Shown: piece by piece, positions 863-16,380 of the stretch
How the letters are laid out: every line of letters begins with the position of its first letter
How positions within the stretch are numbered: the stretch's first letter is position 1
NCBI GenBank assembly: GCA_016200005.1
Contig: JACQFP010000009.1
Coordinates: 1-38,469 of the forward strand
DNA length: 38,469 nt
Direction of reading: 5' to 3'
DNA from: Verrucomicrobiota bacterium
Lineage (GTDB): Bacteria; Verrucomicrobiota; Verrucomicrobiia; Limisphaerales; PALSA-1396
Made by a program: the position numbers and the translations under genes
Notes under the pieces: model-generated
What the model was told of the DNA's origin: nothing
What the model saw: the letters and a program-made list of their open reading frames with translations, nothing else
Database searches by the model: none

Positions 863-1966
863 CTAGGCCCACGCTTCCTTCAAGAAGCGAATAAAATTTC
901 CGTGCATGATCAGCTTCACATCTTCGCCGCTATAACCACGCGCTGAAAACATCGCTGGCAGGCGTGACAAGTCGGCGATTGTTTCCAAGTCGGCGGGTGT
1001 TTGTTCGCGACCAAACGCGCCGTCGAGATCGGAGCCGATGCCACAATGTCGCGCGCTTCCGGCCAGTTGGCAGATGTGGTCGATATGATCAAGCAACCGC
1101 TCCAGATTCAAGCCGGCGGCTGCCGGCGTGGTCTTGCCGCGCACCCAGGCGGGCACCATCATCCACGCGTCCAACACACCGCCGATGACGGCGCCGCGTT
1201 GGATGAGAGCTTTGATTTGTTCATCGGAGAATTGTCGGTTGTGCGGCACCAGCGAGCGACAGTTTGAATGGCTCGCCCAGAGGCGGCCTTGAAAGTGATC
1301 GAGCGCTTCCCAAAAACTCTCGTCGCAGAGATGGGTCACGTCAAGGATGATACCGAGCCGCTCCATTTCCCTGAGCAACTCGCGTCCGCGCTGCCCCAGA
1401 CCGCCTGTAGCGTCCGTGCCCTGCGCATAAGTCCCCGGGCCATAATGGGCCGGTCCAAGCGCGCGGAGCCCTTGCGCGTAAGAACGTTCGAGGTGTTTGA
1501 ATGTCACGATGGAGTCCGCGCCCTCCAAACTGAGAACGTATCCAATGGGCGCAGGTTGGAGTTCACGCTTTAGCGTGTCCGGACCGGCTGAAGCCTGAAC
1601 TCCAAGCCCCCAAGCTTGCAAATGCTGCTCCAGTCCGGCGGCATCTTTGATCTGCACCATCTGCCCGGCCTCTTCCATTGCACGATACCAGGCGAGTTGC
1701 CCCTGCGTTTGCGCCCACGCCTGTTCCGGCGAATGCCAGCCGCGCAGCGGGTTGCCCGGTTTGACGTAACGGGCGATCTGTGTTGCCACGCACAATCCAA
1801 TTCCACCGCGCCGCATTTCCGGAAGGGACACCGTTCCGTTTCCCCGATCCGGTTTATCGGTGAGTTCCTTTTCGCGTTGGCGAATCTCATCGATGGGCCG
1901 CGTCAAATCGCGATTCCACTCCAGAGCGTTCATCGCGAGGTCAAGGTGGGCGTCGAGGATGAACAT
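863..1966 (-). CDS. Membrane dipeptidase, peptidase family M19
   Basis: This is a 367-residue zinc dipeptidase of the renal dipeptidase (M19) family. The expected metal ligands are visible: H7 and D9 in DAHLD near the start, E148 in SLEGAD, the His of LDVTH, the His of ASHSN, and the Asp of GIGSDLDG. Family members hydrolyse dipeptides and often accept a D-residue at the C-terminal side, which would suit the adjacent permease and D-amino-acid enzyme. The frame could be extended upstream, but that stretch overlaps the permease gene and is not protein-like, so the ATG at 1966 giving MFILDAHLD is chosen; 11 bp separate it from the permease stop. Residues about 121-137 are encoded by a 50-bp palindromic repeat that sits in frame just before the strand carrying E148. 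No signal peptide is seen, so a cytoplasmic location is likely. Confidence 0.9.
   Translation of the reverse strand: MFILDAHLDLAMNALEWNRDLTRPIDEIRQREKELTDKPDRGNGTVSLPEMRRGGIGLCVATQIARYVKPGNPLRGWHSPEQAWAQTQGQLAWYRAMEEAGQMVQIKDAAGLEQHLQAWGLGVQASAGPDTLKRELQPAPIGYVLSLEGADSIVTFKHLERSYAQGLRALGPAHYGPGTYAQGTDATGGLGQRGRELLREMERLGIILDVTHLCDESFWEALDHFQGRLWASHSNCRSLVPHNRQFSDEQIKALIQRGAVIGGVLDAWMMVPAWVRGKTTPAAAGLNLERLLDHIDHICQLAGSARHCGIGSDLDGAFGREQTPADLETIADLSRLPAMFSARGYSGEDVKLIMHGNFIRFLKEAWA
1556..1605. repeat. 50-bp cloverleaf-like palindromic element inside the M19 gene
   Basis: The ends are a perfect 10-bp inverted repeat, TTGGAGTTCA and TGAACTCCAA. Between them lie three further small palindromes: CGCTTTAGCG, GTCCGGAC and GGCTGAAGCC. 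The TTGGAGTTC foot followed by a hairpin recurs at 5676-5743 and 16307-16380, both intergenic. Here the element is read through in the dipeptidase frame as about 17 residues including SAGPDTLKREL. Confidence 0.85.
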
Positions 1967-5586: not shown

Positions 5587-5675
5587 GCGGGAAGTTATAC
5601 CCACAGACTGCGCCAGCGAGACAAGGAATAAAAATTGTGGGCCATGCACTTGATTTCCGCACATGCAAACGGGGC

Positions 5676-5743
5676 CAACCTAAAGGTTGAACTCCAACGA
5701 AACCGGTCACGCGCGGCGTTGGAGTTCACGCTTTAGCGTGTCC
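5676..5743. repeat. Pair of hairpins with TTGGAGTTC feet (REP-like)
   Basis: The left hairpin CAACC-TAAA-GGTTG is followed by GAACTCCAAC. After a 19-bp spacer comes GTTGGAGTTC and the hairpin CACGCTTTAGCGTG. The two feet are inverted copies of each other. The right half is identical over about 22 bp to the left half of the element inside the M19 gene. The pair lies in the 296-bp gap between ridA and the oxidoreductase gene; no gene is seen in that gap. Confidence 0.8.
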
Positions 5744-5882
5744 GAGGGGCCGAGGAGAATCGCCGGTGCATCGCCCATGAAATTCTTGTCGCGAGGATTA
5801 ATCCACGAATGGAAACTTGTTCGACAGCAAGAAAACTTGCGCGCACTCCTCCCACGGTGTCTGCGATGCGGGAATGCAATCG

Positions 5883-8546: not shown

Positions 8547-8615
8547 TTGTCCCCTCACCCTTCCCTCTCCCCCTCGGAGGGGGAGAGGGTGGCCGAAGGC
8601 CGGGTGAGGGGACAA
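8547..8615. repeat. Nested palindrome of the CCCTCTCC/GGAGAGGG family
   Basis: A perfect 14-bp outer inverted repeat (TTGTCCCCTCACCC at 8547-8560 and its complement at 8602-8615) encloses a 13-bp-stem hairpin at 8563-8589 and a small GGCC-GAA-GGCC hairpin at 8591-8601. It occupies part of the 224-bp gap between hupE and the antitoxin gene; nothing else is seen there. The architecture, an outer stem with inner hairpins, parallels the 50-bp element in the M19 gene. Confidence 0.85.
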
Positions 8616-8686: not shown

Positions 8687-10096
8687 TTATCTTAACGCAG
8701 CGACCAAATAAAAAATCCCCGCCACGGAGATGGCCGCTGAACCGTAGCGCAACGCGCGCGCGGCGATTTGATTTCGTCCGGTTTCGTCCACTTGTGTCGC
8801 GCGCGCCAGTTTCAAGGCGCAGAAAACCGGCAGCACCACGATCTGGTGTCCCACCTCGACGCCCACGCTGAACGCGACGATGGCCAGTCCGACCGTCAGG
8901 CCCGCCATGCCTTCCATGGCGCTCAACAATCCGCCCGCAAAGCCGAGTCCATGAAACAGACCAAAGAAGAATGCGACGGCGAGCCGCGACCAACCGCGCG
9001 TGCGCTCCGGCCAAAAGACGTTTTGCAGGGCCACAAAGACGATGCTCGCGGCAATCATCGGTTCGACCACGCTCGACGGCAACCGGACGAGATCGAGCAC
9101 GGCCAGCGTCAGGGTGATGGTGTGGGCCAGCGTGAACGCGGTGACGACTTTGACGAGATCCCAAAGTGTCACCGTCGCCAGCACCAGCGCGCCGATGAAC
9201 AGCAGATGATCATAGCCGCTCAAGATATGCATGATCCCGTGGCGCAAATAGTCTTTAATCATGCGCCATTTCTCCAGCCGCGGCGCGCGCGATTGATGGC
9301 CGGCGGTGTCGGCCTTCCAGTCGCAGATGTAGTCGAGCGGCTCTTTGAAGGTGAGCAGCAGTCCTTCGGTGGATTGCCGTTCGTGTTGGCCGATGCGCAC
9401 GACGTAAGTGGCTTCCCATGGATTGCCGGGCGCGTAATTAAATTCGCGGAGCACGTCTTGTTGGATGCGGACTTTTTGCGGCACCGCAGTCGTGGCGAAT
9501 TCAAAATCATAAATCACGCGGTCGGTGGAAGTTTCACCCTCTCCGCTGCGTAGTGGAGGAGAGGGCCGGGGAGAGGAGACGTCATTTTCTGGCTGGCCCT
9601 TCTCGATGAACCTGCCACCGACCGGCCCACCCCTGACCCCTCCCAGGAGGGGATCAATCCCCGGTGCGGTGCTCCCCTCCTGGGAGGGGCGAGGGGTGGG
9701 TTCAGGGGTTCGATTCGCGTAATCTGTTTCTCGGAAGGTCGTGTCACCGAGTTTCCGCGCGCTGCTGCCCGGCTCGATGAGGTTTACGAGACGGCCGGAG
9801 AGAAGCTGACCGTCAGCCGAGACTTTGAAATGTTTGAGCAGATATTGGGCGTGCTTCTTCCACACGTCTGTGAAGGGAACGCCTTTGTCGTCGCCGGTGG
9901 CACCGAGCGCGCTGGAGACAAAAACCTCTTCGGTCGTCACGCGCATGTGGAAGGTGATTTTGTCGGGAAAGATTTCCACCACCAGAGAGTTTTGCGAAAC
10001 GGGATGGGCGAAGGCCGAGTGTTCAGTCACGAGCCATGAAAGCAGGAGGAGAATGACGAATCTTGCAATGACCGATTGACGATGCCCCCTCACCAT
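8687..10096 (-). CDS. HupE/UreJ-family membrane protein with in-frame repeat insertions
   Basis: This 469-residue protein has a signal peptide (VIARFVILLLLSWLV to SAFA) and an extracytoplasmic N-terminal region starting HPVSQNSLVVEIF. The C-terminal HupE/UreJ-type domain has the family start HGIMHILSGYDHLLFI and about six membrane segments including FFFGLFHGLGFAGGLL. HupE/UreJ proteins are linked to nickel or cobalt handling, but this branch is uncharacterised and no metal enzyme is nearby. The ATG at 10096 is chosen because AGGTG lies just upstream; starts at 10189 and 10207 would include a palindromic repeat. Residues about 129-161 and 174-190 are encoded by GC-rich palindromes and are Pro/Gly/Ser-rich, unlike the rest of the protein. 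The 3' end is duplicated at 7820-7867. Confidence 0.85.
   Translation of the reverse strand: MVRGHRQSVIARFVILLLLSWLVTEHSAFAHPVSQNSLVVEIFPDKITFHMRVTTEEVFVSSALGATGDDKGVPFTDVWKKHAQYLLKHFKVSADGQLLSGRLVNLIEPGSSARKLGDTTFRETDYANRTPEPTPRPSQEGSTAPGIDPLLGGVRGGPVGGRFIEKGQPENDVSSPRPSPPLRSGEGETSTDRVIYDFEFATTAVPQKVRIQQDVLREFNYAPGNPWEATYVVRIGQHERQSTEGLLLTFKEPLDYICDWKADTAGHQSRAPRLEKWRMIKDYLRHGIMHILSGYDHLLFIGALVLATVTLWDLVKVVTAFTLAHTITLTLAVLDLVRLPSSVVEPMIAASIVFVALQNVFWPERTRGWSRLAVAFFFGLFHGLGFAGGLLSAMEGMAGLTVGLAIVAFSVGVEVGHQIVVLPVFCALKLARATQVDETGRNQIAARALRYGSAAISVAGIFYLVAALR
9531..9580. repeat. CCCTCTCC-type palindrome inside hupE
   Basis: CCCTCTCC (9537-9544) pairs with GGAGAGGG (9558-9565). The left flank GTTTCACCCTCTCC recurs inverted at 10139-10152, just upstream of hupE. 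Within hupE it is read as SSPRPSPPLRSGEGETS without a stop or frame change. Confidence 0.75.
9626..9700. repeat. CCCACCCC...GGGGTGGG nested palindrome inside hupE
   Basis: The outer arms CCCACCCC and GGGGTGGG enclose two hairpins, CCCCTCC-CA-GGAGGGG (9637-9652) and CCCCTCC-TG-GGAGGGG (9674-9689). The left half matches the intergenic copy at 18104-18168 almost base for base. In the hupE frame it reads as a Pro/Gly-rich segment including PRPSQEGSTAPGIDPLLGG. Confidence 0.85.
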
Positions 10097-10118
10097 GCAC
10101 CTGCTGCCAACCCACCCA

Positions 10119-10152
10119 CCCCTTTCCCCATCCGAGGAGGAGAGGGTGAAAC
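10119..10152. repeat. Degenerate CCCTCTCC-type palindrome upstream of hupE
   Basis: An imperfect inverted repeat in the 134-bp gap between hupE and the small membrane-protein gene. Its right part GGAGAGGGTGAAAC is the exact complement of 9531-9544. It would be translated if hupE began at 10189 or 10207, which argues for the later start. Confidence 0.5.
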
Positions 10153-10230
10153 CGGCGTCCACGCAAAGTTGAAGGATTATCCGCTTCATCAATGAACGTG
10201 AAATCAAATTGCCCTTACAACTTTACCTCT

Positions 10231-16306: not shown

Positions 16307-16380
16307 GTTTGGAGTTCCGCCTTCAGGCGGTCTGGTTGGGTGTTAAAACCCCGGAACCGCCTGAAGGCGGAACTCCAAAC
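16307..16380. repeat. 74-bp inverted repeat with TTTGGAGTTC feet and CCGCCTTCAGGCGG hairpins
   Basis: The first 24 bp (16307-16330) and last 24 bp (16357-16380) are exact reverse complements, and each arm itself contains a hairpin (CCGCCT-TC-AGGCGG). The foot TTTGGAGTTC is shared with the elements at 1556-1605 and 5676-5743. It lies in the 5' region of the ThuA-like gene, 57 bp before its start codon. Confidence 0.9.

Follow-up and report, generated by a model that had tools for sequence, protein, structure and literature searches.

The locus described here raises the question of how a palindrome comes to be read as protein within an enzyme gene, and of what became of the enzyme. In the window (the whole 38,469-nt stretch analysed), an M19 dipeptidase gene on the minus strand (863–1966; PF01244, residues 3–364 of 367, E 3.1e-50) contains at 1556–1605 a REP-like head-to-head dimer of 50 bp, TTGGAGTTCA ... 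TGAACTCCAA, and codons 121–137 of the minus-strand ORF (1556–1606) read it in frame as LGVQASAGPDTLKRELQ. An earlier note on this DNA had described a 50-bp element with a 10-bp outer inverted repeat, and the 10-bp outer arms are indeed perfect. The element comprises two units, each a foot, TTGGAGTTC, followed by a 5-bp hairpin: unit 1 (1556–1577, plus strand) has the hairpin CACGC-TTTA-GCGTG at 1564–1577, and the inverted unit 2 (1584–1605, minus strand) has CAGGC-TTCA-GCCGG at 1584–1597, with 4/5 stem positions paired. As a single DNA strand the element folds at −14.3 kcal/mol (z −4.92, 0/200 shuffles as good), a strong hairpin being predicted in both DNA and RNA. The cloverleaf that the earlier note had read into the palindrome was rejected, the predicted minimum being one long hairpin.

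The TTGGAGTTC family is dispersed far beyond chance, as the earlier note had proposed. In the genome of the window (G000; a draft assembly of 6.54 Mb in 87 contigs), the 20-mer TTGGAGTTCACGCTTTAGCG was found at 167 sites (75 + 92) at ≤3 mismatches, compared with 0 + 1 for the reversed pattern, and dimers with exact arms (TTGGAGTTC-N25..55-GAACTCCAA) numbered 36, against 0 in the control. A collection of units from own-genome DNA that required the foot and two loop bases but imposed nothing on the stem yielded 132 examples, for which the consensus was the foot (G)TTGGAGTTC and then the 5-bp hairpin, its loop nearly always TTCA or TTTA. Pairing at 4–5 of 5 stem positions was seen in 121/132 units, and 609/660 stem cells were paired, where 1000 re-pairings gave 487 on average and never more than 513; the stems covary, pair 2 between AT, CG and GC, and pair 3 between GC and CG. 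REP/BIME elements have a foot plus hairpin, occur as inverted pairs and are present in many copies, and the TTGGAGTTC family resembles them in all three respects: its stem-loop unit has a conserved foot and is repeated in the genome, and head-to-head dimers are frequent. The foot is, however, neither of the tags, GTAG or CGTC, by which REPs are further recognised, and the family was therefore filed under neither super-family.

In the own-genome DNA analysed for dimers (935,310 bases and a few short loci, partly chosen around copies), slightly relaxed arms gave 48 dimers of 50–79 bp, including all 36 with exact arms. A G flanked the left end in 41 of them, and a C flanked the right end in 42. 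There was no excess identity between the flanks of these 48 dimers at k 3–8 relative to re-paired controls, as target-site duplication would produce. The dimers are thus like MITEs in being short, non-coding and bounded by terminal inverted repeats, and unlike them in consisting, within 50–79 bp, of two hairpin units without target-site duplication. Distribution across the order was patchy, with at least one exact dimer in 39/293 sampled genomes (own genome included); the same-genus genome G001 had 0 exact dimers and 3 single-unit matches.

Two further arrangements of this family lie in the window. One is a second head-to-head dimer, of the TTGGAGTTCC subfamily (16309–16378, 70 bp), whose left flank lacks an open coding frame. 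The other is an intergenic composite palindrome at 5639–5776, GGGCCATGCACTTGATT... with a degenerate partner, which holds units with their feet inside at 5676–5697 and 5719–5740. The same foot and hairpin had earlier been placed at 5718–5743: the unit at 5719 is real and intergenic, but its arrangement is another one, with feet inside a larger palindrome. This composite, GGGCTATGCACTTGATTCCC.../...GGGAATCAAGTGCATAGCCC, encloses the two feet-inside units, and the outer 20-mer recurs genome-wide at 31 sites (17 + 14, ≤3 mismatches), compared with 0 in the control.

The dipeptidase itself satisfies the profile (PF01244), the fold and the conserved residues expected of Peptidase M19. A structure model built with 28 sequences had a mean pLDDT of 91.7 and pTM 0.91, and its fold agrees with those of M19 structures (Z 40.5 to 3fdg_A). 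D5, H7, D9, E148, H212 and H233, which we take to be the metal ligands, are among the invariant columns of the 28-sequence alignment, in keeping with the earlier statement that all ligands are kept. The translated element lies in the low-confidence stretch of the model: blocks 121–130 and 131–140 average pLDDT 56 and 60, and residues 130–134 form the sole run below 50. It follows helix 109–126, whose last turns, modelled with low confidence, already belong to the insert, and precedes the predicted strand 141–148 that ends at E148, where the earlier note had put it. Against the orthologue of G001, over 356 aligned codons, dN was 0.065 and dS 0.73 (ratio ~0.09); the gene is under purifying selection. 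The enzyme is probably intact.

Relatives lack the peptide. The survey of M19 proteins combined 30 loci from one search (35/58 genomes matched) with the best 80 of 210 from another; the 109 loci other than the window's represent 102 distinct proteins, 7/109 rows repeating another. The 17-residue segment was looked for in these homologues and was absent from all 109, the best 80 of 210 included. With the frame open and dN/dS ~0.09, this accords with the earlier proposal that the element landed in the gene without inactivating it. Over the whole alignment, the loop was 11–13 residues shorter than that of the window protein in 78/109 loci and longer in 12/109, and the net extra length relative to the short-looped proteins of G039, G008 and G004 was 12–13 residues. 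Of the earlier figure of about 17 extra residues, the 17 codons in frame (121–137) stand, but the net gain is 12–13; nor do homologues have a clean gap at 121–137, some relatives carrying other palindromes there.

Other genes of the window genome that contain the element were also longer than their counterparts by anchored lengths: FabD by 16 and BioA by 14 residues relative to three relatives, SelA by 11–12 relative to two, DUF58 by 14 relative to G047, and RhaT by 8 relative to G001, with CysS 10 residues longer than in two relatives and only 2 longer than in G001. The insert peptide was absent from FabD, BioA, SelA and CysS of the relatives compared. In seven genes (these six and M19) the net gain was less than the element plus its flanking G and C (48 nt compared with 58 in FabD, 42 with 54 in BioA, 36–39 with 52 in M19), which suggests, from these comparisons of length, that 10–20 or more target bases were lost at insertion, or else that the loop has been shortened since. 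SelB counts against target loss, its net gain of 26–27 residues (78–81 nt) being more than a 59-nt element explains. Unrelated segments of nearly the same length are present in SelA of G004 and in both PrpD and Mfd of G001, and these, with SelB, indicate that such loops vary for other reasons too. Because the relatives compared are diverged (84% M19 DNA identity to G001), no strict empty site was seen among them.

Insertion in frame, into genes that stay open, was a general property of the copies within genes, as it is for RPE-like coding palindromes. The earlier note had proposed a genome-wide count of such copies: among the 48 dimers examined, 13 (11 of the 36 with exact arms) were flanked on both sides by sequence coding on one strand and in one frame, and 13/13 were stop-free in frame within an open ORF. 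The hosts are the M19 dipeptidase, PrpD, CysS (TIGR00435, 50–527), Mfd (TIGR00580), SelA, SelB, BioA, RhaT, FabD (acyl transferase domain), DUF58, two ECF sigma factors (TIGR02937) and an AMP-ligase. The family match spans the insert in 12/13; in the exception, the MenE-like AMP-ligase, the Pfam match starts after the insert, and a 64% match in G001 apparently runs across the segment. Each of the 13 dimers has its own spacer. Nine of them, in unrelated proteins, encode a peptide of the form GVQ...LK.ELQ; in three the left half is different (WSS...LK.ELQ), and the SelB copy, of the TTGGAGTTCC subfamily, reads FGVPPSGG...SGTPN.

The remaining 35/48 dimers fell outside the in-gene class by the coding-signal test, and no gene-breaking dimer was seen among the 48, 33 of which were judged by coding signal alone. 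Two (L162:4817 and L182:3019) had same-strand flanks in other frames and were rejected as frame-broken copies, a reading of the ORFs placing both at boundaries of adjacent genes; the L182:3019 dimer overlaps the end of the first ORF, and the names at these sites (RibD/RibE-like, acyltransferase/LolA-like) come from that reading. A 355-aa ORF at L178 was also rejected as a host, having neither a Pfam match nor coding signal. In-gene dimers were shorter than the others (Mann-Whitney p 0.00085, in DNA partly chosen around copies); lengths of 2 mod 3 were found in 9/13 of them, compared with 13/35 elsewhere, for which no significance is claimed.

Other repeats were noticed within open frames. A palindrome family CCCTCACCC..CCCTCTCCCC..GGGGAGAGGG..GGGTGAGGG is present at 8552–8610 of the window and at L129:14407, inside PrpD, where it is read in frame as HPLPIRWGEGRGEG, so that PrpD carries two unrelated families. 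A 506-aa ORF on the minus strand of the window (8687–10207) contains PTPRPSQEGS..LLGGVRGG and SPRPSPPLRSGEGE segments that look like more translated repeats. At L182:1668–3035, the open frame of an ORF that looks RibD-like by eye includes both a palindrome segment, CCTCCAAGGGAGAGG / CCCCTCTTGGAAGGGG, and tandem copies of AAATCGC, and in the BioA region at L188:4101 a AAATCACAAATCG-type repeat lies in frame upstream of the insert; G001 differs there too.

As judged from sequence, four different palindromic families occupy the one M19 loop in four lineages, three of them families other than the window's and one of these in the sister species. The M19 protein of same-genus G001 is sister to the window protein in the tree (support 100/99), and its loop holds a different palindrome, GGACGAGTTACACGAGTCCC..GGGACTCGTGTAACTCGTCC, whose 18-base arm GGACGAGTTACACGAGTC has 30 sites in G001 (≤1 mismatch) and 0 in G000. 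In G058 and G059 (proteins AV2 and AV5), the loop contains a GGTAGGGCG..CGCCCTACC element, somewhat decayed in G058, in which GGTAG contains the GTAG tag; exact GGTAGGGCG/CGCCCTACC dimers number 8 in G058, 3 in G059 (that of the AV5 gene included) and 0 in G000. The G038 loop contains GGAGCGCCGATTT..., found at 12 sites in that genome (≤2 mismatches, M19 copy included), with 5 weaker matches in G000, all at 2 mismatches. At one site in DUF58, G000 carries a TTGGAGTTC dimer and G001 a GGTAGGGCG..CGCCCTACC segment; G047 has neither. The ECF sigma factors, with TTGGAGTTC in two G000 paralogues, TTGGAGTCCC in G039 and a CCCTCACCC palindrome in G004, may repeat this use of a single site by different repeats if orthology of the paralogues is assumed; the feet of TTGGAGTTC and TTGGAGTCCC are similar, making shared ancestry of those inserts possible.

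Could the segment be a native, conserved part of a dipeptidase subfamily, its palindrome incidental? Loop length does vary across the family, some loops (12/109) being longer than the window's, but absence of the peptide from 109 other loci, the match of its DNA to a dispersed family and the recurrence of the GVQ..ELQ form in nine of the 13 in-gene copies, in unrelated proteins, make this scarcely credible. Misjoining of repeats into genes during assembly, for which a draft of 87 contigs gives some occasion, is extremely improbable given 13 genes with a separate spacer each, all in frame, and inserts of other repeats that are found in parallel in different assemblies. The insert might also be missing from the final protein, through ribosomal bypass or splicing. 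The byp elements of yeast mitochondria are bypassed by ribosomes, and the strong hairpin in DNA and RNA would suit such a process; neither bypass nor splicing would need the copies to be in frame and stop-free, however, as 13/13 are, and we consider this very improbable.

Two further explanations accept the element as a translated repeat and differ in why it is kept. It could be retained for a role in mRNA, such as stability or attenuation, with translation a side effect: the stem-loops persist with compensatory change, 35/48 dimers failed the in-gene test, and RNA roles of REPs are proposed in a REP survey (PMC3733652). The in-gene copies are, however, in genes of unrelated function, and on balance this role is unlikely. 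Alternatively, the REP-encoded loop may have been adopted for enzyme function, the reuse of the M19 loop reflecting selection rather than tolerance, as the four palindromic families in four lineages and the same-site insert of another family in DUF58 of G001 could suggest. Against this are the low model confidence of the insert, its freedom of sequence between lineages and the loops 11–13 residues shorter in 78/109 loci, which render adoption distinctly unlikely.

The explanation that we favour, and hold to be very probable, is that the element belongs to a dispersed family of miniature, non-autonomous REP-like dimers built on the TTGGAGTTC foot, that one copy reached the M19 gene in this genome's lineage, and that it is read through as an added peptide. 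Ribosomes would translate across the element, so that the peptide is really made, adding a flexible surface segment (GVQASA..TLKRELQ) to a still-folded enzyme, presumably with neutral effect and with partial loss of target sequence at insertion. Surviving in-gene copies would be those that kept the frame at sites tolerant of length change, as expected under selection against other insertions.

By analogy with REPs, which are associated with RAYT transposases (PMC3733652), movement may depend on a Y1/HUH (RAYT-like) transposase acting in trans. Of the Y1 transposase ORFs in the own genome, 0/4 were beside TTGGAGTTC units (one with ~240 bp upstream). A search of six other genomes gave 33 Y1 matches, 30 with a locus, and 0/30 of these were beside such units within ≤~1.5 kb on each side, 15/30 being shortened by contig ends; a few bare TGG[AT]GTTC matches lay nearby, but inspection by eye recognised no hairpin-bearing unit among them. 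In comparison with REP/BIME elements that have RAYTs, no RAYT with these units beside it was found at the loci scanned, and the GTAG tag is absent.

Palindromic repeats inserted in frame within genes are already known as a kind from Rickettsia and Opitutus terrae, and the earlier remark that no such description was known for this group is not supported: Di Nocera et al. 2013 describe in-gene REPs in several bacteria, over half of which occur as dimers or groups and encode 20–30 residues, the highest numbers being those of GTAG REPs in the verrucomicrobium O. terrae and CGTC repeats in Rickettsia conorii (PMC3733652). The survey also records different REPs at about the same recB site in X. campestris and X. 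oryzae and, in A. variabilis, dimers of GTAG-15 that lie within longer palindromes (PMC3733652). As described there (PMC3733652), the O. terrae repeats are, like ours, verrucomicrobial, short palindromic units, often dimers, in repair and other genes, whereas the foot here is TTGGAGTTC, the organism and target genes are others, and one loop is common to four families. As cited in the same survey, Rickettsia RPE-1, RPE-4 and RPE-6 are similarly in frame in genes likely still functional, but in another phylum, RPE-4 and RPE-6 being CGTC repeats and RPE-1 longer, differences drawn from their description (PMC3733652). A literature search found no report of a TTGGAGTTC foot. New are a foot matching neither the GTAG nor the CGTC tag and the occupation of a single loop by several unrelated families, also within a genus, together with hints of target loss at insertion.

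The 13 genes provide a comparable set of natural insertions whose donor can be recognised, in conserved enzymes such as CysS, Mfd and FabD, for a phenomenon noted before in one species of the phylum (PMC3733652). Related lineages with different repeats in the same loop make insertion-tolerant sites in proteins countable, and let one ask whether any loop made by a repeat has been retained for a function. More tentatively, and with somewhat more doubt than confidence, we suggest that unrelated palindromic families repeatedly seed the same enzyme loops, as stop-free peptide cassettes (GVQASA..LKRELQ) that replace a 10–20 bp target rather than duplicating it. If this were true, orthologues would differ by which repeat supplied the loop, and Verrucomicrobiota would have in such repeats a general source of new protein surface, and one that can be traced.
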